Positions 642 through 16,726 of a DNA stretch of 64,000 bases are shown in pieces. How positions within the stretch are numbered: position 1 is the first letter of the stretch; each line of letters begins with the position of its first letter. Below the pieces are notes generated by a model. The model did not search any database. It was not told the DNA's origin and saw nothing but the letters and a program-made list of their open reading frames with translations. The translations under genes were made by a program, and so were the position numbers. Source of the DNA: Metapseudomonas boanensis (GTDB lineage: Bacteria > Pseudomonadota > Gammaproteobacteria > Pseudomonadales > Pseudomonadaceae); contig NZ_JAGTIS010000012.1 of the NCBI RefSeq assembly GCF_018704125.1, positions 1 through 64,000 on the forward strand, written 5' to 3'.

Positions 642-657
642 TGGCACATCGCTTGCT
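642..657 (+). promoter_or_regulatory. Sigma-54 (-24/-12) promoter of nasST
   Basis: TGGCAC at 642-647, 5-base spacer, TTGCT at 653-657: an exact match to the RpoN consensus TGGCAC-N5-TTGCW with the correct GG to GC spacing. It is the first recognisable signal after the upstream terminator, and the predicted start near 668 lies about 110 bases before nasS. NtrC-dependent nitrogen control is the natural inference; I could not find a convincing NtrC enhancer. Confidence 0.75.
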
Positions 658-779
658 TTAGCCAGTTCACCAATACTCACTCCAATGGCGGAGCGGGTTG
701 ATGACGATGGCGTCGATTCCAGTGGCAGCTCCGGCAGCACTGGGGCGGCGCCATTTTGCTGATTAGGTGGCAAGAAACC

Positions 780-1994
780 ATGACCGATAAGCAGACCCCT
801 ACACGATCGGACAGCCTGGACTGGGTGGCCGGCAGCGATGCCCCGGAAAAGTGCATGCTCAACCTGGGCTTCATGCCCCTGACCGATTCAGCCTCCCTGA
901 TCGTCGCCGCCACTCAGGGATTCGCGCAGCCATACGGGCTGACACTCAATCTGCAGCGCCAGGCATCCTGGGCAACCCTGCGCGACAAGCTGCTGGGCGG
1001 AGAGCTTGATGCCGCGCAGGCACTCTACGGTCAGGTCTATGGCATCCAGTTCGGGATCGGTGGCCCTGCTGCCGACATGGCGATCCTGATGACCCTGTGC
1101 CAAAACGGTCAGGCCATCAACCTCTCGGAACCCCTCAAGCGCACCGGCGTGACCAGTTCAGAGGCACTGACCCGCCACGTGCTCCATGGCGGTGCACGCC
1201 TGACCTTCGCCCAGACCTTTCCTACTGGCACCCATGCGATGTGGCTCAACTACTGGCTGGCGGCCCAAGGCATTCATCCGCTGCATGACGTCGACACAGT
1301 GGTGGTGCCGCCCTCGCAGATGGTCACTCACCTCAAGGCTGCCCGCATCGATGGCTTCTGTGCTGGCGGCCCCTGGGGCGCGCTGGCCGTGGAGCAAGGC
1401 CAAGGCTTTACCCTCGCCACAAGCCAGATGATCTGGTCCGATCATCCGGAGAAAGTCCTCGCCGTTACCCAGGCATTTACCGAGCAATACCCCAACACAG
1501 CCCGTGCCCTGACCATGGCCCTGCTGGAGGCCAGCCGTTTTATTGAAGACAACCTGGAGAATCGCCGCAGCACGGCCCAGCTGATCAGTGGCAGCGACTA
1601 TGTCGACGTCCCCGTTTCGGCTATCGAACCACGCTTTCTGGGGCACTACGAGGACGGTCTCGGCAACGCCTGGGAGGACGCTCATCCCTTACGGTTCTTC
1701 GATCAGGGAAGGGTCAACATGCCTTACCTCTCGGATGGCATGTGGTTCATGACTCAATTCCGTCGCTGGGGCCTGTTGCGTGACGATCCAGACTATCTCG
1801 GCATCGCACGCCAGGTTCAGCGGATCGATCTTTACAAACAGGCCGCTGGAGCACTGGGCATCGAGGTGCCCGAACCCATGCGCAGCGCCACACTGCTCGA
1901 CGGCAAGCGCTGGGACGGTAGCGATCCAGCAGGCTATGCCCGCAGCTTCCCGATCCATGCACTGGCTGGCAGCACCCAGGCCATGGCCCTGTAG
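780..1994 (+). CDS. nasS: NasS, cytoplasmic nitrate/nitrite sensor (NrtA/CmpA-like)
   Basis: A 404-residue protein resembling the periplasmic nitrate-binding proteins NrtA/CmpA (LNLGFMPLTDSASLIVAATQ near the start; DAAQALYGQVYG in the middle) but with no signal peptide, as expected of the soluble sensor NasS. In Pseudomonas, Azotobacter and Paracoccus, NasS holds the antiterminator NasT inactive and releases it when nitrate or nitrite binds. nasT follows 21 bases downstream, the diagnostic pairing. Start: ATG 780 (MTDKQTP) preceded by AGGTGG at 765-770; an in-frame start at 756 would add 8 residues. A sigma-54 promoter lies upstream. Confidence 0.92.
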   Translation: MTDKQTPTRSDSLDWVAGSDAPEKCMLNLGFMPLTDSASLIVAATQGFAQPYGLTLNLQRQASWATLRDKLLGGELDAAQALYGQVYGIQFGIGGPAADMAILMTLCQNGQAINLSEPLKRTGVTSSEALTRHVLHGGARLTFAQTFPTGTHAMWLNYWLAAQGIHPLHDVDTVVVPPSQMVTHLKAARIDGFCAGGPWGALAVEQGQGFTLATSQMIWSDHPEKVLAVTQAFTEQYPNTARALTMALLEASRFIEDNLENRRSTAQLISGSDYVDVPVSAIEPRFLGHYEDGLGNAWEDAHPLRFFDQGRVNMPYLSDGMWFMTQFRRWGLLRDDPDYLGIARQVQRIDLYKQAAGALGIEVPEPMRSATLLDGKRWDGSDPAGYARSFPIHALAGSTQAMAL

Positions 1995-2015: not shown

Positions 2016-2594
2016 ATGTTGCGCATTCTCCTGATCAACGATACGGCCAAGAAAGTCGGCCGCCTGAGAGCCGCTCTGGTCGAAGCCGGCTTCGAGGTCA
2101 TCGACGAGTCCGGCCTTACCATCGATCTGCCGGCGCGGGTCGAGGCAATTCGCCCGGACGTGATCCTCATCGACACTGAGTCCCCTGGGCGGGACGTCAT
2201 GGAACAGGTCGTACTGGTAAGCCGTGACCAGCCTCGCCCCATCGTCATGTTCACCGACGAACACGACCCCAATGTAATGCGCCAGGCTATCCAGTCCGGC
2301 GTCAGCGCTTACATCGTCGAAGGCATTCAGGCCGATCGCCTCCAGCCTATTCTCGACGTCGCCATGGCCCGCTTCGAAAGCGACCAGGCGTTACGCGCCC
2401 AGCTCACAGCCCGCGACCAGCAACTGGCCGAACGCAAGCGCATCGAACTGGCGAAAGGGCTGTTGATGAAGATGAAAAGCTGCAACGAAGAGGAGGCCTA
2501 TACCCTAATGCGGCGCCAGGCCATGAGTCGACAGCAGAAGCTGATCCAGGTAGCCGAACAGATCATCGCCATGCACGAGATGCTGGGGCACTGA
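2016..2594 (+). CDS. nasT: NasT, ANTAR-domain RNA-binding antiterminator
   Basis: A 192-residue two-domain protein. Residues 1-120 form a receiver-like domain (MLRILLINDTAKK..., with the candidate Asp in VILIDTESPG). Residues about 130-190 are an ANTAR RNA-binding domain (LAERKRIELAKGLLMKMK, NEEEAYTLMRRQAM). ANTAR proteins bind tandem hairpins with six-base loops in leader RNA and stop an overlapping or following terminator from forming. Matching hairpins are found before the nitrate reductase operon (11744-11784) and before nasA (8343-8362). Activity is expected to be set by sequestration by NasS rather than by phosphorylation. Co-transcribed with nasS. Confidence 0.93.
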   Translation: MLRILLINDTAKKVGRLRAALVEAGFEVIDESGLTIDLPARVEAIRPDVILIDTESPGRDVMEQVVLVSRDQPRPIVMFTDEHDPNVMRQAIQSGVSAYIVEGIQADRLQPILDVAMARFESDQALRAQLTARDQQLAERKRIELAKGLLMKMKSCNEEEAYTLMRRQAMSRQQKLIQVAEQIIAMHEMLGH

Positions 2595-8312: not shown

Positions 8313-8328
8313 TGGCCCAGCTCTTGCT
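8313..8328 (+). promoter_or_regulatory. Sigma-54 (-24/-12) promoter of nasA
   Basis: TGGCCC (8313-8318), 5-base spacer, TTGCT (8324-8328): one mismatch to the RpoN consensus, with the required GG and GC dinucleotides at correct spacing. The predicted start near 8340 falls just before the NasT-type hairpin at 8343. Confidence 0.65.
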
Positions 8329-8342
8329 CAGCAATTGCCAAA

Positions 8343-8426
8343 GGTAGCCAACGGCGGCTGCCCGACCAAACGACAAAGGCGTCGCGTCACTCCGCATCAA
8401 TGCGGGCAGTGATGCGGCGCTTTTTT
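8343..8426 (+). promoter_or_regulatory. NasT-responsive leader of nasA: six-base-loop hairpin plus intrinsic terminator
   Basis: Hairpin 8343-8362: stem GGTAGCC/GGCTGCC (7 bp, one T-G wobble) with loop AACGGC, A at position 1 and G at position 4, the ANTAR-target loop pattern. At 8379-8420 follows a long terminator stem closed by the tetraloop TCAA, then TTTTTT (8421-8426). The first hairpin begins at the predicted transcript start. A second six-base loop is not clear: AACGAC occurs at 8369-8374 but its flanks pair poorly. Inferred: NasT binding prevents termination so that nasA, 200 bases downstream, is transcribed when nitrate is present. Confidence 0.65.
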
Positions 8427-8595: not shown

Positions 8596-8620
8596 CCCCT
8601 AACTGCAGATGAGGTGTTCG

Positions 8621-9832
8621 ATGACTACGAGTTTCTGGAAGGCCGGCCACACGCCCACCCTGTTCTCCGCATTTCTCTACTTCGACCTGAGCTTCATGGT
8701 CTGGTACGTACTTGGCCCCCTGGGTGTTCAGATCGCCGCCGACCTGCAACTGACCACGCAGCAGCGTGCCCTGATGGTCGCCACCCCGATCCTCGCTGGC
8801 GCGGTACTGCGCTTCCTGATGGGCCTGCTGGCCGATCGCACCTCGCCGAAGACCGCAGGCCTGCTTGGCCAAGTGGTAGTGATCTGCGCATTGTTCGGTG
8901 CTTGGCAGATGGGGGTCCACAGCTATGAGCAAGCCCTGCTGCTCGGCCTGTTCCTCGGCTTTGCCGGCGCCTCCTTCGCGGTAGCGCTGCCGCTGGCTTC
9001 CCAGTGGTACCCGGCAGAACATCAGGGCAAGGCCATGGGTATTGCCGGCGCAGGCAACTCCGGCACAGTGCTGGCCGCCCTGTTCGCTCCCGGCCTGGCA
9101 ACCATGTTCGGCTGGAACAACGTCTTCGGACTTGCCCTCATCCCACTGGTGCTGACCCTGGCGATCTTTGCCCTGGCCGCCCGTAACGCGCCCAACCGCC
9201 CGGCGCCCAAGGCCCTCGGTGACTACCTGAAAGCGCTGGGCGACCGCGACAGCTGGTGGTTCATGTTCTTCTACAGCGTGACCTTTGGCGGCTTCCTCGG
9301 CCTGGCCAGCACCCTGCCCGGCTACTTCCACGACCAATACGGCCTGGCACCTGTCACAGCTGGCTATTACACCGCCGCCTGCGTCTTCGCCGGCAGCCTG
9401 ATGCGCCCGCTGGGGGGGGCCTTTGCCGACCGTGTTGGCGGTATCCGTACCCTGCTTGCGGTCTATACCGTCGCCGCACTGTGCATCGCCGCCGTGGGCT
9501 TCCACATCTCCAGCCCCACTGCAGCGCTGGCCCTGTTCGTGGTCGCCATGCTCAGCCTTGGCGCAGGCAATGGCGCCGTGTTCCAACTGGTACCGCAGCG
9601 GTTCCACAAGGAAATCGGCGTCATGACCGGCCTGATCGGAATGGCAGGCGGCATTGGCGGTTTCTGTCTGACGGCTGGCCTCGGCGCCATCAAGCAACAC
9701 ACTGGGGACTACCAGCTCGGTCTGTGGCTGTTCGCCAGCCTTGGCGTGCTCGCCTGGTTCGGTCTGCACGGCGTGAAAATGCGCTGGCGCACCACCTGGG
9801 GCTCGGCTGCCGTGACCGCTGCCCGCGTCTAA
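8621..9832 (+). CDS. nasA: NasA, nitrate transporter of the major facilitator superfamily (NNP family)
   Basis: A 403-residue protein with about 12 membrane helices. It has the nitrate/nitrite porter signature: GFAGASFAVALPLASQWYP in the first half and LSLGAGNGAVFQLVPQ in the second, plus the AAA..RFLMGLLADR loop. It imports nitrate for assimilation. Start: ATG 8621 (MTTSFWKAGHTPTLF, the usual family N-terminus) with GAGGTG at 8611-8616; an in-frame ATG at 8609 has no ribosome site. It is preceded by a sigma-54 promoter and a NasT-type leader. The PP2C-kinase gene follows in the same direction after a 94-base gap holding a hairpin. Confidence 0.93.
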   Translation: MTTSFWKAGHTPTLFSAFLYFDLSFMVWYVLGPLGVQIAADLQLTTQQRALMVATPILAGAVLRFLMGLLADRTSPKTAGLLGQVVVICALFGAWQMGVHSYEQALLLGLFLGFAGASFAVALPLASQWYPAEHQGKAMGIAGAGNSGTVLAALFAPGLATMFGWNNVFGLALIPLVLTLAIFALAARNAPNRPAPKALGDYLKALGDRDSWWFMFFYSVTFGGFLGLASTLPGYFHDQYGLAPVTAGYYTAACVFAGSLMRPLGGAFADRVGGIRTLLAVYTVAALCIAAVGFHISSPTAALALFVVAMLSLGAGNGAVFQLVPQRFHKEIGVMTGLIGMAGGIGGFCLTAGLGAIKQHTGDYQLGLWLFASLGVLAWFGLHGVKMRWRTTWGSAAVTAARV

Positions 9833-9867: not shown

Positions 9868-9926
9868 TTGCACGTGGTAGGTTGGCACGCCAGCCCAACA
9901 GCTCCTTCAATCCCCAGGACGCGCGC

Positions 9927-11597
9927 ATGCCCCTGCAACTCAGCTTCGGCGAAGCCAGCGCCACCGGTCCCCGGGCCGAAAACCAAGATGCCCTGCGCGT
10001 GGTCACCCCGGCCCCGGCACTTGCAGCGAGCAAGGGCTACCTCTTCGCTCTCGCCGACGGTGTCAGCCAGTGTGCGGACGGTGGCCTGGCCGCCCGCGCC
10101 ACGTTGCAGGCCCTGGCTCTGGACTACTACTCCACGCCGGAAACCTGGCCCGTCGCGCAATCGCTGGATCGCCTCCTGGTCGCCCACAACCGCTGGCTTC
10201 AGGCAAGCGGCGCCGGCCAATCGCTGCTGACAACCCTCTCCGCCCTGGTATTGCGCGGCCGTCGCTTCACCCTCGCGCATGTCGGAGACTGCCGGGCCTA
10301 TCGCTGGCATGCCGGCCAACTCGAACGCCTCAGCGAGGACCATGTCTGGGAACAACCAGGCATGCAGCATGTGCTCAAGCGTGCGCTGGGGCTAGACCAG
10401 CATCTGGTGGTGGATTACCTGGATGGCGAACTACAGGAGCAGCAGCGCTTTCTGTTGGTCAGCGACGGTGTCTGGGCGGTGCTGGGGGACCGCGGTATCC
10501 AGAGCATCCTGCAGGACGAGTCAGACTTGAGTGGCGCTGCCAAGGCGCTGGTCAGCGCGGCGCACCTGGCCGGCAGTCAGGACAATGCCAGCGCCTTGCT
10601 GATTCAGGTCGACCACTTGCCTGAGGCTGGACTGGCGGACACCCTTGCCCAACTGGATCACTGGCCGCTGCCCCCTCTGCTGCAGCCCGGGCAGGATTTC
10701 GAAGGCTGGGAGGTGGACCGCCTTCTGGCCGAGTCCCGCCAGTCGATGGTCTACCGCGTGCGCGATGCGCAGGCCCGCCGCTGGTTACTGAAAACCTTGC
10801 CGCCCAGCCGTCGCGACGAGCTTCAAGCCGGACCAGCGCTGATGCAGGAGGAATGGTTCCTGCGTCGCGTCGCCGGCCGGAACTTTCCGGAAGTCCACCC
10901 GCTGCCGCACCGCCAACACCTTTACTACGTCCAGCGCGAGTATCCTGGCCGGACCCTGGCCGAACACCTGCACATCAGTGGGCCAGTGGCGCTGCCGGAA
11001 TGGCTGGACATCGCACCCCGGCTGATCAAGGCCCTGGGCATGCTGCACCGGCGCAATATCCTGCACCGCGACATCAAACCAGAGAACCTGCTCTGGGGCG
11101 ATGATGGCGAGCTTCGCCTGCTGGACTTTGGCCTGGCCTACTGCCCCGGCATCTCCCAGGACGACCCCAACAGCCTCCCTGGAACCCCCAGTTTCATTGC
11201 CCCCGAGGCCTTCAGCGGCGCAGCCCCGACAAGCCGCCAGGATCTCTTTGCTGCGGGCGTTACCCTCTACTACCTGCTAACCGGTCACTATCCCTACGGC
11301 GAAATCGAGCCATTTCAGCACCCAAAGTTCGGCACCCCCGCCCCAGCCAGCCGCTACCGTCCGGATCTCCCGAACTGGATTGATGAATGGCTGCTCCGGT
11401 CACTCAGTGCCGATCCGGAAAAACGCTACGAAACAGCCGAAGAATGGTTGCTGGCGCTCGAACAGGATGAACGCAAGTCGCTCAACACGCGACCACGTCC
11501 CTTGCTGGAACGAGAACCACTGAAGGTCTGGCGTGGCATCGCCCTGATGTCGCTGTTGGTGAACCTCGCGCTGGCCTTCCTGCTCGCCAACACCTGA
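9927..11597 (+). CDS. Fused PP2C phosphatase and Ser/Thr protein kinase with C-terminal membrane anchor
   Basis: A 556-residue fusion. Residues 1 to about 235 are a PP2C-type phosphatase with GPRAENQDAL, FALADGVSQ, AHVGDCRAY, LLVSDGVW and GSQDNAS, giving the metal-binding aspartates. Residues about 265-510 are a Hanks-type kinase with HRDIKPENLLW (catalytic Asp near 381), LLDFGLAY (DFG near 400) and PGTPSFIAPEAF (activation loop/APE). One membrane helix ends the chain (about 535-554). Kinase and phosphatase in one chain suggests reversible phosphorylation of an unknown target. P. aeruginosa has the same gene between nasA and the nitrite/nitrate reductase genes, implying a link to nitrate use. 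Start: ATG 9927 (MPLQLSFGEAS), chosen by domain start. Confidence 0.88.
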   Translation: MPLQLSFGEASATGPRAENQDALRVVTPAPALAASKGYLFALADGVSQCADGGLAARATLQALALDYYSTPETWPVAQSLDRLLVAHNRWLQASGAGQSLLTTLSALVLRGRRFTLAHVGDCRAYRWHAGQLERLSEDHVWEQPGMQHVLKRALGLDQHLVVDYLDGELQEQQRFLLVSDGVWAVLGDRGIQSILQDESDLSGAAKALVSAAHLAGSQDNASALLIQVDHLPEAGLADTLAQLDHWPLPPLLQPGQDFEGWEVDRLLAESRQSMVYRVRDAQARRWLLKTLPPSRRDELQAGPALMQEEWFLRRVAGRNFPEVHPLPHRQHLYYVQREYPGRTLAEHLHISGPVALPEWLDIAPRLIKALGMLHRRNILHRDIKPENLLWGDDGELRLLDFGLAYCPGISQDDPNSLPGTPSFIAPEAFSGAAPTSRQDLFAAGVTLYYLLTGHYPYGEIEPFQHPKFGTPAPASRYRPDLPNWIDEWLLRSLSADPEKRYETAEEWLLALEQDERKSLNTRPRPLLEREPLKVWRGIALMSLLVNLALAFLLANT

Positions 11598-11698
11598 CGC
11601 ACCAACCCAGGGCAAGCAGGCTGCAATAAGGTGCGCCAGCGGCCCCAGCAAACACTGAACCTCTGGTGAAACCCAATAACCATGCGGCCTTGCAGAGT

Positions 11699-11714
11699 TG
11701 GCACAGCACCTGCA
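11699..11714 (+). promoter_or_regulatory. Sigma-54 (-24/-12) promoter of the nitrate reductase operon
   Basis: TGGCAC (11699-11704), 5-base spacer, CTGCA (11710-11714): a perfect -24 element and a -12 element with the invariant GC. Predicted start near 11725, about 20 bases before the first leader hairpin. Confidence 0.72.
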
Positions 11715-11743
11715 AAGACAGATTCGACAATCTACAAAAGCGC

Positions 11744-11784
11744 CCACCTCAACGACGAAGTGGCACTTTCCCGATCGAACGGGA
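11744..11784 (+). promoter_or_regulatory. NasT (ANTAR) target: tandem hairpins with six-base loops
   Basis: P1 at 11744-11763: CCAC-C-TC / GA-A-GTGG with one C-A mismatch and loop AACGAC. P2 at 11769-11784: perfect TCCCG/CGGGA with loop ATCGAA. Both loops have A at position 1 and G at position 4, the defining feature of ANTAR-binding RNA, and the hairpins are 5 bases apart. An intrinsic terminator follows 8-11 bases after P2. This is the architecture described for nitrate-responsive leaders, and NasT is encoded at 2016-2594. Confidence 0.82.
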
Positions 11785-11794
11785 CTTGGACAAA

Positions 11795-11827
11795 GGCGTC
11801 CTGCTGGCAACAGCAGGCGCCTTTTTT
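11795..11827 (+). terminator. Leader terminator of the nitrate reductase operon (antitermination site)
   Basis: Stem GGCG-CCTGCTG / CAGCAGG-CGCC with a single bulged T and loop GCAA, followed by TTTTTTGTTT; an A-rich segment precedes it. Position 33 bases before the first structural gene and just after the NasT hairpins marks it as a regulated terminator. Confidence 0.85.
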
Positions 11828-11859: not shown

Positions 11860-13197
11860 ATGAAGAAACTCAAGCTGGTGATGATCGGAAATGGCATGGC
11901 CGGGGTCCGTGCGCTGGAGGAACTGCTCACGCTTGCCCCAGAGCGCTACGACATCACCGTGTTCGGCGCGGAGCCGCACCCGAACTACAACCGCATCCTG
12001 CTCTCCCCCGTACTGGCCGGCGAGCAAGCGTTCGAGGACATCGTTCTCAACGATCTCGACTGGTATTCGCGGCACGACATCAAGCTGCTGCTAGGCCGCG
12101 AAGTGGTGAAGATCGATCGGATCAAGCGCCAGGTGATCGCCCAGGACGGTACAGTCGCTGACTACGATCGCCTGGTCATCGCCACGGGCTCCACTCCATT
12201 CGTTCCTCCGGTACCGGGTAACCGCCTGCAGGGCGTGATCGGCTACCGCGACATCGCCGATACCCGCGCGATGATCGAGGCCGCCCGTACCCACAGCCAC
12301 GCCGTCGTCATCGGTGGCGGCCTGCTCGGCCTGGAAGCTGCCAACGGCCTGCGCCAGCGCGGCATGGACGTCACTGTGGTGCATCTCGGTGACTGGCTGT
12401 TGGATCGGCAGCTCGACGCAACCGCCGCCGGCCTACTGAAGGAGGCCCTTCAGGCCCGTGGGATCCACTTCCGCCTGGGAACCAACACAGAGGAACTGGT
12501 CGACAACGGCGAAGGCCTGGTCTGTGCCGTCCAGTTCAACGACGGCGACATCATACCCGCCGACCTTGTCGTGCTGGCCGCCGGCATCCGCCCCAATTTC
12601 CGGCTCGCGGAAGCAGCAGGCCTGCCCTGCAACCGCGGCATCCTGGTCAACGACACGCTGCAAACCTATGATCCGCGCATCTATGCCATCGGCGAGTGCG
12701 CCAACCATCGCGGTGTCGCTTACGGCCTGGTGGCGCCCCTTTTCGACCAGGCCAAGGTCTGCGCCAACCACCTCGCAGGCCTCGGCTTCGCCCGCTACCA
12801 GGGTTCGGTGACGTCCACCAAGCTCAAGGTCACCGGCATCGACCTATTCTCCGCCGGCGACTTCATGGGCAGCGAGGGTTGCGAAACCATCACCTTCTCC
12901 GACCCGGTTGGCGGCATCTACAAGAAGCTCGTGATCAAGGACAACCTGCTGGTGGGTGCCTGCCTGTATGGCGACATCGCCGACGGCGCCTGGTACTTCC
13001 GGCAGATCCGCGAGCAGCAGGATATCGGCGCCATTCGCGACCACCTGATGTTTGGCGAACCGTCACTGGAATCGGCCTACGCGCAGGAAACCCGCAAGGC
13101 CAGTATCAGCCCCATGGTTCCGGCGGCCCCGGCCAGTTTGCTCCTGACAGCCACCTTGGCCCGGCTGCATGCCAAGCAAACCGCTCTGAGCGCGTGA
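11860..13197 (+). CDS. FAD/NAD(P)H-dependent electron-transfer subunit of assimilatory nitrate reductase (NirB N-terminal-like)
   Basis: A 445-residue pyridine-nucleotide disulfide oxidoreductase-type flavoprotein. FAD-binding start KLVMIGNGMAGVRALEEL; HPNYNRILLSPVLAG as in the NirB N-terminal domain; NAD(P)-binding AVVIGGGLLGLEAANGL; second FAD motif IYAIGECANHRGV. It stops near where NirB would continue into its [2Fe-2S] and siroheme domains, and the last 40 residues carry no cysteine cluster. This is the size and layout of the Klebsiella NasC / Bacillus NasB electron-transfer subunit that passes NAD(P)H electrons to nitrate reductase, encoded 48 bases downstream. Not a broken nirB as far as I can see: no siroheme-domain remnant follows. 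Confidence 0.85.
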   Translation: MKKLKLVMIGNGMAGVRALEELLTLAPERYDITVFGAEPHPNYNRILLSPVLAGEQAFEDIVLNDLDWYSRHDIKLLLGREVVKIDRIKRQVIAQDGTVADYDRLVIATGSTPFVPPVPGNRLQGVIGYRDIADTRAMIEAARTHSHAVVIGGGLLGLEAANGLRQRGMDVTVVHLGDWLLDRQLDATAAGLLKEALQARGIHFRLGTNTEELVDNGEGLVCAVQFNDGDIIPADLVVLAAGIRPNFRLAEAAGLPCNRGILVNDTLQTYDPRIYAIGECANHRGVAYGLVAPLFDQAKVCANHLAGLGFARYQGSVTSTKLKVTGIDLFSAGDFMGSEGCETITFSDPVGGIYKKLVIKDNLLVGACLYGDIADGAWYFRQIREQQDIGAIRDHLMFGEPSLESAYAQETRKASISPMVPAAPASLLLTATLARLHAKQTALSA

Positions 13198-13245
13198 TTG
13201 GACGCTTCGATACCTCTTCAAGCCCAGACTTACGGAAGCTTCAAC

Positions 13246-15978
13246 ATGTCCCTGAACAGTGAAACCCAAACCACCGCCTCCACCTGCTGCTACTGCGGCG
13301 TTGGCTGCGGCGTGCTGATCGAGCACGACGGCGAGCGGATCCTGGGTGTGCAGGGCGACCCCGCGCATCCGGCCAACTTCGGCCGGCTCTGCAGCAAGGG
13401 CTCCACCCTGCACTTGACCGGCGATATCGACGCGCGTGCGCTGTACCCGGAACTGCGCCTCGCCAAGGGCCTGGCAAGAGCACGAACCGACTGGAGCACT
13501 GCCCTGGACCACGCGGCCAGCCGCTTCGCCGAAACCATCCGCGAGTACGGTCCGGACAGCGTGGCCTTCTATATCTCCGGGCAACTACTGACCGAGGACT
13601 ACTACGCCTTCAACAAGCTGGCCCGGGCACTGGTCGGCACCCACAACATCGACAGCAACTCCCGGCTGTGCATGTCCTCGGCTGTGGTCGGCTACAAGCG
13701 CAGCCTGGGCGTGGACGCGCCGCCCTGCAGCTACGAAGACCTCGAACAGAGCGATTGCGTGCTGATTGCTGGTAGCAACATGGCCTTCGCCCACCCGATC
13801 CTGTTTCGTCGCCTGGAAGCGGCCAAGGCGCAGCGCCCCGACATGCGCGTCATCGTCATCGACCCGCGCCGCACTGACACCTGCGACCTGGCGGACCTGC
13901 ACCTGGCCATTCGTCCCGGCACCGACGTGGCGTTGTTCCACGGCATCCTGCACATCCTGATCCAGGAAGGCTGGGTCGCCCGGCGCTTCATCGCCGAACA
14001 CACCGAAGGCTTCGAGGCGCTCGAAACGCAGGCTGCCGACAGCACCCCGGAGGCGGTTGCAGAACTCTGCGGTATCACCGAGAGCGACCTGCGCTGCTGC
14101 GCCGAATGGATCGGCAAGTCGCCAACCTTCCTCTCGCTCTGGTGCATGGGCTTGAACCAGTCCACTGCCGGCAGCGCCAAAAACAGCGCACTGATCAACC
14201 TCCACCTGGCCACCGGCATGATCGGTCGCCCCGGTTGCGGCCCCTTCTCCCTCACCGGCCAGCCTAACGCCATGGGCGGCCGCGAAACCGGTAGCCTGGC
14301 CAACTTGCTGCCCGGGCATCGGGAGGCTGGCAACGCCGAGCACCGCGCCGAGGTCGCTCAATACTGGGGGGTCGACTCGCTTCCCGTGCGCCCGGGCCTC
14401 ACGGCCATCGAACTGTTCGAAGCGGTCCGTGACGGACGCATCAAGGCACTCTGGATCGCCTGCACCAATCCGGCCCAATCGCTGCCCGATCAGCTGAAAA
14501 TCCACGAAGCGCTGGCAGCCTGTCCCTTTGTCGTGGTCCAGGAAGCTTTTTTCACCACCGAGACCTGCCGCTATGCCGACCTGCTTCTGCCCGCTGCCAG
14601 CTGGGGCGAGAAGGAAGGTACCGTGACCAACTCCGAGCGCCGCGTCAGCCATGTGCGGCGCGCGGTCCCAGCGCCCGCAGAGGCGCGACCGGACTGGGCA
14701 ATCGTCTGTGACTTCGCCCAGCGCCTGGAATCCCAACTCCGCCCCGGCCTGCCAAGCCTGTTCGACTTCGACAACGCAGAAGCCCTGTTCGAGGAATACA
14801 AGCAGCTGACCTCCGGTCGCGACCTCGATCTCACCGGCATCGACTATGCCCTGCTGGACAACCAAGGCCCCCAGCAATGGCCTCTACCCGTGGGGGCCAC
14901 CCAGGGCACCCCACGGCTCTACGTCGATGGCCGCTTCCCCACTGCGAGCTCACGTGCGCGATTCGTGGCCGACGCTTATTGCGCACCACAGGAGCCACGT
15001 GATGATCGCTATCCGCTGACGCTGAACACCGGCCGCCTGCGCGACCAGTGGCATGGCATGAGCCGCACCGGCACCGCTGCCCGGCTGTTCGGCCATGTGG
15101 AACAAGCCATGCTGAGCCTGCACCCGGACGAACTGCACCAGCGGGGCCTGCAGGACGGCCAGTTGGTGCGCGTCACCAGCCGGCGCGCGAGCCTGATCCT
15201 GCCGGTGCAGAGCGATGACGCGATCCAGCCCGGTGAGGCCTTCCTTCCCATGCATTGGGGCGACCGTTTTCTCAAGGGCCTCGGCTGCAACGTGCTGACA
15301 CTCCCCGCCTTCGACCCGCTGTCAAAGCAGCCGGAACTGAAGCACGCGGCCGTTGCGATAGAAGAAGCCGAACTGCCCTGGCAGTTGTTCGCGCTGATCG
15401 AAGGCGACGTTCAGCAACGCTTCGAAGCACTGCGCCCTCTGTGCGAGGACTTCGACTATGCCAGCTTGAGTCTGGCAGGCAGGGAGCGTCCCGCCCTGGT
15501 ACTGCGCGCCGCACACCATGGCGCAATCGCCAAGGAGCTGCTCGACCGGATCGACGCGCATCTGAACCTGTGCGATGGCCCTGTCATCGCCTACGACGAC
15601 CCCAGCCAAGCCGTCGGCAAGCGCGTGCGCGTCGACCAGGGTCGCATCACAGCCGTACGCCTGGCAGGCGAAACGGCAGCACGGCACTGGCTCAAGGATC
15701 TCTGGCAGAGCGGGCAGATGGACGAGCAGATGCGGCGCTGGCTGCTCGCTCCGCTCAGCACCCCGCCCTCGGCCGCAGGCGCTTCAAGCGTCCCGAGCAA
15801 AACCCTGTGCAACTGCATGAACGTGAGCCAACAGGCCGTCTGCGCGGGAATCGAGCGCGGGCTGGACCTGGCCAGCCTGAAGCAGGAACTGGGCTGCGGC
15901 ACCAGCTGCGGCTCCTGCGTTCCGGAAATCAAGAGACTGCTGGTGGCGCACGCGGCGCCCTCCGCAGCGTTTGCCTGA
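13246..15978 (+). CDS. nasC: Assimilatory nitrate reductase, molybdenum catalytic subunit with C-terminal [2Fe-2S] domain
   Basis: A 910-residue cytoplasmic Mo-bis-MGD enzyme reducing nitrate to nitrite. The N-terminal [4Fe-4S] motif is CCYCGVGCGV ... GRLCSKG. Molybdopterin-domain hallmarks include NSRLCMSSAV, GSNMAFAHPI, VIDPRRTDTCDLA, and GQPNAMGGRETGSLANLL; the C-terminal dinucleotide-binding domain has LNTGRLRDQWHGMSRTG. Residues about 853-895 form a BFD-like [2Fe-2S] domain (CNCMNVSQQAV ... CGTSCGSC), fitting electron intake from the upstream FAD protein. Start: ATG 13246 (MSLNSETQ) behind GGAAG; an in-frame upstream start at 13198 lacks a good ribosome site. Symbol follows P. aeruginosa usage; Klebsiella calls it nasA. 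Confidence 0.92.
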   Translation: MSLNSETQTTASTCCYCGVGCGVLIEHDGERILGVQGDPAHPANFGRLCSKGSTLHLTGDIDARALYPELRLAKGLARARTDWSTALDHAASRFAETIREYGPDSVAFYISGQLLTEDYYAFNKLARALVGTHNIDSNSRLCMSSAVVGYKRSLGVDAPPCSYEDLEQSDCVLIAGSNMAFAHPILFRRLEAAKAQRPDMRVIVIDPRRTDTCDLADLHLAIRPGTDVALFHGILHILIQEGWVARRFIAEHTEGFEALETQAADSTPEAVAELCGITESDLRCCAEWIGKSPTFLSLWCMGLNQSTAGSAKNSALINLHLATGMIGRPGCGPFSLTGQPNAMGGRETGSLANLLPGHREAGNAEHRAEVAQYWGVDSLPVRPGLTAIELFEAVRDGRIKALWIACTNPAQSLPDQLKIHEALAACPFVVVQEAFFTTETCRYADLLLPAASWGEKEGTVTNSERRVSHVRRAVPAPAEARPDWAIVCDFAQRLESQLRPGLPSLFDFDNAEALFEEYKQLTSGRDLDLTGIDYALLDNQGPQQWPLPVGATQGTPRLYVDGRFPTASSRARFVADAYCAPQEPRDDRYPLTLNTGRLRDQWHGMSRTGTAARLFGHVEQAMLSLHPDELHQRGLQDGQLVRVTSRRASLILPVQSDDAIQPGEAFLPMHWGDRFLKGLGCNVLTLPAFDPLSKQPELKHAAVAIEEAELPWQLFALIEGDVQQRFEALRPLCEDFDYASLSLAGRERPALVLRAAHHGAIAKELLDRIDAHLNLCDGPVIAYDDPSQAVGKRVRVDQGRITAVRLAGETAARHWLKDLWQSGQMDEQMRRWLLAPLSTPPSAAGASSVPSKTLCNCMNVSQQAVCAGIERGLDLASLKQELGCGTSCGSCVPEIKRLLVAHAAPSAAFA

Positions 15979-15988
15979 GGAGACCGTT

Positions 15989-16726
15989 ATGAATGGCAAG
16001 GTATGGTTGGTAGGCGCAGGCCCAGGCGACCCGGAACTGCTGACGCTCAAGGCGGTACGGGCACTGAATCGGGCGGAAATCGTGATGATCGACGACCTGG
16101 TCAACCCCGCGGTTCTTGAGCACAGCCCTAACGCACGCGTCATCCGCGTCGGCAAACGCGGCGGTTGCCGTTCGACGCCCCAGGCGTTCATCCATCGGTT
16201 GATGTTGCGCTATGCCCGTCAAGGCAAGGCCGTCGTACGCCTGAAAGGCGGCGACCCATGCATCTTCGGCCGCGGCGGTGAAGAGGCCGAATGGCTCGCG
16301 GCCCATGGCGTGGAAAGCGAGCTGATCAACGGCATCACCGCAGGTCTAGCCGGCGCCACCAACTGTGGCATTTCGCTGACCCTGCGCGGCATCAGTCGCG
16401 GCGTGACCCTGGTCACCGCGCATACCCAGGACGACAGCGAACTCAACTGGCATGCCCTCGCCCAGAGTGGAACCACTCTGGTGGTGTACATGGGGGTGGC
16501 CAAACTGGCGGACATCCGCAACGGTCTGCTCGCGGGCGGCATGTCCGACGGAATGCCAGTCGCCATGATCGAGAACGCCTCCCTGCCCTTTCAGCGCGAA
16601 TGTCGAAGCACGCTTGGCCGGATGCAGGCTGATGCTTTGGCCTTCCAGCTCAAGAGCCCTGCGATCCTGGTGATCGGTGAAGTGGCAGCCGATACCTCGG
16701 CCCTGCCCCAGGCCCTGAGCGCCTAG
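15989..16726 (+). CDS. cobA: Uroporphyrinogen-III C-methyltransferase
   Basis: A 245-residue SUMT. SAM-binding VWLVGAGPGDPELLTLKA at the start, RLKGGDPCIFGRGGEEAEWL in the middle, and GITAGLAGATNCGISLT, the family signatures. It methylates uroporphyrinogen III twice to precorrin-2, the shared precursor of siroheme and cobalamin. Its place in the nitrate operon, 10 bases after the nitrate reductase stop, suggests it supplies siroheme for nitrite reductase, although no nitrite reductase lies here. Start: ATG 15989 behind GAGGAGA. A strong terminator follows. Confidence 0.92.
   Translation: MNGKVWLVGAGPGDPELLTLKAVRALNRAEIVMIDDLVNPAVLEHSPNARVIRVGKRGGCRSTPQAFIHRLMLRYARQGKAVVRLKGGDPCIFGRGGEEAEWLAAHGVESELINGITAGLAGATNCGISLTLRGISRGVTLVTAHTQDDSELNWHALAQSGTTLVVYMGVAKLADIRNGLLAGGMSDGMPVAMIENASLPFQRECRSTLGRMQADALAFQLKSPAILVIGEVAADTSALPQALSA

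Follow-up and report, generated by a model that had tools for sequence, protein, structure and literature searches.

A P11-type leader RNA before a nitrate-use operon of Metapseudomonas boanensis as a probable NasT antitermination switch with a folded spacer between its two ANTAR hairpins

Positions 11699-11827 of a 64,000-nucleotide stretch of Metapseudomonas boanensis DNA (assembly GCF_018704125.1, contig NZ_JAGTIS010000012.1, positions 1 to 64,000 of the forward strand; hereafter the window) are the predicted RNA switch of a nitrate-use operon and belong to an established family with an established mode of action. In our preferred reading, to which we give a probability of about three in four, NasT brings about antitermination through two hairpins, P1 (loop AACGAC) and P2 (loop AAAGGC), and a middle hairpin between them is a folded spacer, not an essential NasT site. 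The parts of the leader are as follows.

11699..11714, forward strand: sigma-54 (-24/-12) promoter TGGCAC-AGCAC-CTGCA of the P11-type leader (sequence)
11744..11763, forward strand: P1 hairpin CCACCTC-AACGAC-GAAGTGG with one C.A mismatch, hexaloop 11751-11756 (sequence, conservation, covariation)
11769..11784, forward strand: middle hairpin TCCCG-ATCGAA-CGGGA, loop 11774-11779, previously labelled P2 (sequence)
11788..11801, forward strand: P2 or antiterminator hairpin GGAC-AAAGGC-GTCC, hexaloop 11792-11797 with A1 and G4 (sequence, fold, conservation)
11792..11827, forward strand: intrinsic terminator with U-run 11822-11827 (fold)

The promoter reported by the first-pass annotation, TGGCAC-N5-CTGCA, was read directly at 11699-11714, where it fits TGGCACN5YTGCW perfectly, and transcription would start near 11725. 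With up to one mismatch allowed, the window contains 10 such motifs (three of them perfect) against 7.5 expected. The motif in the window alone is weak evidence, and its support comes from conservation across leaders; the strict form TGGCA[CT]N5[CT]TGC was present in 108 of 117 parsed leaders. A scan for NtrC sites (TGCACCN5GGTGCA, at most 3 mismatches) gave 40 hits in the window against 51 expected, no excess. Positions 11687-11821 match Rfam family RF00625, 'Pseudomonas sRNA P11', over its full length (1-139) with 87.5 bits (gathering threshold 70; E 2.5e-17), and this is the sole match at E ≤0.001 in the 5.7-Mb genome. A search of a phage collection with the leader gave no match.

Three small hairpins succeed one another in the leader, with loops AACGAC, ATCGAA and AAAGGC, each with A as its first and G as its fourth base (A1/G4). 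The first two, with 5 nt between the hairpins, and the terminator ending in TTTTTT had been described accurately before; the third A1/G4 hexaloop hairpin, at 11788-11801, had been missed, and the first two were listed as the ANTAR pair. The loop and 3′ arm of the third hairpin are common to the 5′ arm of the terminator. In folding computations, an RNA ending at 11801 formed all three hairpins, and in an RNA ending at 11827 the terminator replaced the third (-40.1 against -32.5 kcal/mol with P2 forced); the terminator by itself folded at -24.2 kcal/mol. P2 (11788-11801) and the terminator (11792-11827) are thus mutually exclusive in the predicted structures. An ANTAR leader has two hairpins with six-nucleotide A1/G4 loops, a description that AACGAC and AAAGGC fit, and its second hairpin, the antiterminator, overlaps the terminator (PMC3369936), as does that at 11788-11801 and not that at 11769-11784. 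The AACGAC loop is, by analogy, the predicted first NasT site. The gap between the P1 and P2 stems is 24 nt (11764-11787), or 8 nt once the 16-nt middle hairpin is discounted.

We compared these elements across a sample of the family Pseudomonadaceae. RF00625 gave 120 matches, of which 116 were read as leaders, and the addition of L018 made 117. Three weak matches (in G067, G082 and G089) lie antisense to the P11 leader and extend over about 30 nt at its 3′ end; of these, L173 was read, and the other two stayed unread, as did a 31-bit match in G109. The tallies for nas operons omit L018 (before nasS), L122 (before a second nirB-like frame) and L123 (before an nrtA-like gene), leaving 114 leaders, 110 in genomes with NasT and 4 in genomes with NasR; the assignment to the nir/nas/cobA type draws on the neighbouring genes of 24 of these 114. 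Since the species share ancestry, the leaders do not count as independent events. A1/G4 was the prior expectation for the loops, and the P1 pattern C-AANGNN-G was set after inspection.

Conservation of its loops in relatives, which the first-pass annotation had named as decisive, holds for AACGAC and fails for ATCGAA. The AANG start of the P1 loop was kept in 110 of 110 nas-operon leaders of NasT-bearing genomes, and the P1 stem reached 4 or more pairs, a single mismatch being allowed, in 106 of 109 leaders and fell short in three. The middle hairpin had a six-nucleotide loop in 52 of the 110 and an A1/G4 loop of that length in 47; elsewhere, including within the same genus, it had tri-, tetra- or pentaloops, was larger or was absent, and in three species of the window's genus its loop was GTCGAA. 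Because its A1/G4 loop overlaps the 5′ arm of the terminator and is kept as AAAGGC/T in 109 of 110 leaders of NasT genomes, we take the AAAGGC hairpin as P2. It fits the ANTAR P2, and the ATCGAA hairpin, rejected for its unconserved loop, is probably not the antiterminator. The one nas leader without P2 is L104 (G157), where a G/C run stands in place of AAAGGCGTCC, either a defective P2 or an error in the sequence. L186, outside the tally, has the P2 loop ACAGGC, in which position 2 is not A.

The earlier proposal had NasT acting on AACGAC and ATCGAA, with the terminator blocked sterically or indirectly. Both loops are A1/G4 in the window leader, their loop starts lie 23 nt apart, much like the 23-25 nt between P1 and P2 that 31 of 40 parsed narK-type leaders show, and the pairing of the middle stem is conserved where the hairpin is present. 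Against this, its loop varies as described, and the middle hairpin lies off the terminator and would therefore provide no antiterminator; we consider the proposal quite unlikely.

ANTAR antitermination is generally held to tolerate little change in linker length. For EutV, a linker longer by 20 nt is reported to abolish antitermination (PMC8934654), and eut linkers measure 5-12 nt, with induction impaired at 3 or 14 nt (PMC3369931). We measured P1-P2 spacing from loop start to loop start in 109 leaders, L104 being omitted as it has no P2. Raw spacing ranged from 25 to 58 nt (centre 40.1, SD 6.05), and subtraction of the middle hairpin left a centre of 25.3 and an SD of 1.93, against a mean SD of 5.5 (range 4.46-6.7) in 100 shuffles of the linkers. 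Raw spacing was 25-26 nt in ten leaders, all of one genus, that lack the middle hairpin, 37-46 nt in 90 with a small hairpin and 51-58 nt in seven with a large one; the respective medians after subtraction were 25.5, 25 and 27. The subtracted spacing fell within 22-28 nt in 104 of 109, the exceptions being 17, 19, 19, 31 and 34 nt. The three leaders at 17-19 nt look over-folded, and those at 31 and 34 nt have no hairpin available to subtract. Because subtraction leaves the spacing nearly constant, the likeliest role of the middle hairpin, as judged from these sequences, is that of a folded spacer keeping P1 and P2 about 25 nt apart.

The narK-type leaders offer a comparison. Of 52 read, 40 were parsed for P2 by a parser that required P1 loops starting with AA, and their spacing was 20-26 nt in 38. 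In a further genus, the loops AATGGC and AAAGGC of leader L189 (G042) lie 47 nt apart, or about 24 nt once the middle hairpin that separates them (about 23 nt) is removed; the next frame after L189 starts MQKLK, like the first genes of nas operons.

Covariation was examined in an alignment of 68 of the 76 distinct spacer-type leaders. The pairs of P1, the middle hairpin and P2 were standard in 88.0% (81.0, 89.6 and 100.0% by helix), and the score for the three hairpins was 0.259, compared with 0.110 (SD 0.008) for shuffled and at most 0.085 for slid alignments. Two-sided changes occurred at 6 of 8 stem pairs of P1 and 4 of 5 of the middle hairpin, a total of 10 that was equalled by 17 of 500 shuffles. 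The P2 stem is nearly invariant inside P11, with its pairs intact in 68 of 68 rows, and covariation there is uninformative; its 5′ arm GGAC lies outside the terminator, and nothing else evident accounts for its constancy. Beyond P11, two-sided changes were found in the P2 stem of narK (CGAC/GTCG) and of G042 (AAGAC/GTCTT), and in a genome of another family of the same order the stem is GAGC/GCTC. The terminator covaries as well by score (0.186 against 0.114), although its numbers of pairs with two-sided changes and of pair types were not above shuffles.

A different role for the middle hairpin would be that of a third station, with NasT dimers using P1, the middle hairpin and P2 in turn in the lineages with an A1/G4 middle loop. 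The three A1/G4 hexaloops of the window leader would accommodate this, and so would the G4 found in 52 of 52 six-nucleotide middle loops; with pairable end bases allowed, an A1/G4 loop is readable in 66 of 109 leaders, the remainder having another hairpin (31) or none (12). EutV is reported to bind single hexaloops, and movement from P1 to P2 has been proposed for it (PMC8934654). Such a switch would exceed any ANTAR leader of two hairpins in length or stringency, or give a graded response. On the other side, position 2 is A in all tallied P1 and P2 loops and never in A1/G4 middle loops, A1 is missing in 5 of the 52, and the form N-NNGA-N would also suit a closed tetraloop cap instead of an ANTAR loop. 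We regard a third station as unlikely and retain the folded spacer.

The distribution of the leader follows that of NasT. RF00625 was found in 17 of 18 genomes of the window's genus, its own included, and in 111 of 158 genomes of the family sample, and NasT (E ≤1e-20) in 114 of the 158. Both were present in 107 genomes, P11 only in 4, NasT only in 7 and neither in 40 (Fisher p 1.4e-25, uncorrected for shared ancestry). Each of the four P11-only genomes has a NIT-ANTAR (NasR-type) protein. In seven genomes a NIT-ANTAR protein is present and NasT gave no match; one of them (G024) has a second ANTAR protein, and together they contributed 11 distinct leaders. Nine of these (L105, L118, L120, L121, L182, L184, L185, L187 and L191) have no A1/G4 hexaloop hairpin of at least 4 pairs before P2, and they keep a terminator-overlapping hairpin of the AAAGGC/AATGGC type, imperfect in L184 and L185. 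L118, one of the four nas-type leaders of NasR genomes, matched the P1 pattern through its closing pair only and was scored as absent.

We considered the NasR genomes as a clean natural knock-out of P1 and rejected the idea. L183 and L188, which precede a porin, carry a complete A1/G4 P1 hairpin, and L118 and L187 have weak three-pair candidates; the correlation between NasR presence and P1 absence is suggestive, not clean.

The genes around the leader, together with two sister leaders within the same 12 kb, are listed below.

642..758, forward strand: second sister leader, before nasS (found through its sigma-54 site at 642-657)
780..1994, forward strand: nasS, NMT1_2 nitrate-binding protein (Pfam; the longest ORF starts at 756, ATG at 780)
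2016..2594, forward strand: nasT, Response_reg (receiver-like) and ANTAR domains (domain search)
8313..8426, forward strand: narK sister leader, RF03032 (Rfam match 8314-8385, 76.4 bits)
8609..9832, forward strand: NarK-type nitrate/nitrite transporter behind the narK sister leader (TIGR00886, 310.8 bits, cut-off 311.7)
11860..13197, forward strand: first gene of the operon, FAD/NAD(P) oxidoreductase of 445 aa, homologue of the NirB N-terminal half (domain matches)
13198..15978, forward strand: assimilatory nitrate reductase-like molybdoprotein of 926 aa with C-terminal Fer2_BFD (Pfam; NCBIfam matches below curated cut-offs)
15971..16726, forward strand: cobA, uroporphyrinogen-III C-methyltransferase (domain matches)

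Two points about these genes had been made before. The presence of nasS and nasT in the window was correct, and the statement that the first gene differs from that of the P. aeruginosa operon stands in that the gene is free-standing and needs correction in that it is still a homologue of the NirB N-terminal half, matching TIGR02374 over model positions 1-400 of 794 with 468 bits (below the 578-bit cut-off). Between the transporter and the nas leader, 9882-11597 holds one frame of 571 aa with PP2C phosphatase and Ser/Thr kinase domains.

The narK sister leader has a sigma-54 site with one mismatch (8313-8328), P1 GGTAGCC-AACGGC-GGCTGCC at 8343-8362, and P2 CGAC-AAAGGC-GTCG at 8371-8384 inside the terminator at 8375-8426; as modelled, it is a plain two-hairpin ANTAR leader without the spacer hairpin. 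The leader before nasS has P1 CTCC-AATGGC-GGAG at 680-693 and a terminator-like hairpin. Its P2-like element GAC-GATGGC-GTC (703-714) has G at position 1 and was unformed in an RNA ending at 716; the terminator-overlapping loop has A1 in six leaders of other genomes before nasS-like frames (L018, L130, L132, L139, L140 and L143). The position of this leader suggests autoregulation.

A second nasS-nasT pair lies on another contig (L022, G000:C45:250000-264000) with nrtABC-like genes and an Alginate_exp porin, its NasT2 being 89% identical to NasT. Two more sigma-54/dual-hexaloop leaders were found there, L021 before nasS2 and L020 before the porin; L021, the second nasS leader of the genome, also reads GACGATGGCGTC. 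In the narK-type leaders L124-L129, L135-L137, L141 and L142, the P2 stem is mismatched (CGAC/GCCG), and the next frame has 811-826 codons, several such frames running past the end of the fetched stretch, and begins ..SVCPYCGVGCG...

From these elements and from studied relatives, we propose the following course of events. In Paracoccus, the NasS-NasT complex is reported to dissociate on nitrate or nitrite, and NasT to bind the nasA leader RNA (PMC3795266); by analogy, we infer that this release, this binding and the exclusion of P2 by the terminator would also apply to the leader at 11699-11827. When nitrogen is short, sigma-54 polymerase, with NtrC presumably as its activator, would start near 11725. 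Where nitrate and nitrite are absent, NasS would hold NasT, the terminator at 11792-11827 would fold, and transcription would stop after about 100 nt, yielding a short RNA of the P11/NalA type. With nitrate or nitrite present, NasT freed from NasS would use P1 and P2, and the stabilised P2 would deprive the terminator of its 5′ arm, so that the operon is transcribed. The middle hairpin would absorb surplus linker and hold P1 and P2 about 25 nt apart. The two-step control put forward in the first-pass annotation, by sigma-54 and NasST-dependent antitermination in parallel with P. aeruginosa nirBD, is supported by the shared Rfam family and the co-occurrence of NasT and P11.

The short RNA might instead be the primary product, P11 acting in trans as a small RNA and the terminator being merely its end. 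P11 is entered in Rfam as type 'Gene', and the P11 of P. aeruginosa PA14, which has been called a regulator of the nitrogen assimilation operon, is reported to make C. elegans avoid the bacterium heritably by way of a 17-nt match to the gene maco-1 (PMC10977744, PMC12080996). Whether the avoidance is inherited is in dispute: one group reports failed replication (PMC11942167), while a commentary speaks of growing support (PMC12604852). Weighing against a trans-acting role, the first downstream frame was NirB-type- or cobA-like in 24 of the 24 listed nas-type leaders (N-termini read, three domain-scanned), the structure fits ANTAR leaders, and P11 tracks nasT across genomes. We judge a primarily trans-acting P11 to be highly improbable. 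Our results rather suggest that P11, the small RNA reportedly read by C. elegans, is the terminated OFF product of a nitrate switch.

Taken together, the analysis corrects the antiterminator assignment from the ATCGAA to the AAAGGC hairpin and joins Rfam P11 and narK into one NasT regulon. A folded linker insert of 0 to about 30 nt within one family, with a hairpin-removed spacing near 25 nt, amounts to a natural experiment, and it suggests that an ANTAR switch reads the distance between its hairpins and not the count of nucleotides. On sequence evidence, the leader would be a structured-linker variant of the known ANTAR switch; a spacer hairpin separating ANTAR hairpins was not found described in the literature searched, which took in neither Romeo et al. 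(2012) nor Wang et al. (2012) and lacked key P. aeruginosa papers.

Among known systems, the closest is the leader of P. aeruginosa nirBD-PA1779-cobA, NalA/P11 (Romeo et al. 2012), which belongs to the same Rfam family RF00625. It shares with the window leader a sigma-54 promoter, a terminator, its place before nitrite/nitrate reductase-cobA genes and NasT as activator (PMC3973561, PMC8092218). That operon is reported to be under RpoN with the activators NtrC and NasT (PMC8092218), and its leader RNA was named NalA (PMC3973561); from their position we infer that NalA and P11 are one RNA. It differs in its first gene, which in the window stands alone as a homologue of the NirB N-terminal half and lacks the sirohaem half. 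The ANTAR antiterminators of eutP (EutV), nasF (NasR) and amiE (AmiR) are described as having, as here, two A1/G4 hexaloop hairpins, the second over the terminator (PMC3369931, PMC3369936), whereas the window leader has a third hairpin between P1 and P2. Its raw linker of 24 nt exceeds both the 5-12 nt of eut and the impairing 14 nt, and becomes 8 nt once the hairpin is discounted. In Paracoccus denitrificans, NasT is reported to bind the nasA leader, which has hairpins HI and HII, and HI is required (PMC3795266, PMC5424462). Finally, the narK RNA (RF03032), whose Rfam model pairs the first hairpin only, resembles the window leader in its sigma-54 promoter, P1 loop AACGGC and terminator-overlapping AAAGGC or AAAGAC. 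The middle hairpin was not seen in the window's narK copy, and leaders of this type serve transporters, nasS-like genes, molybdoenzyme-like frames and a porin, as read from N-termini.
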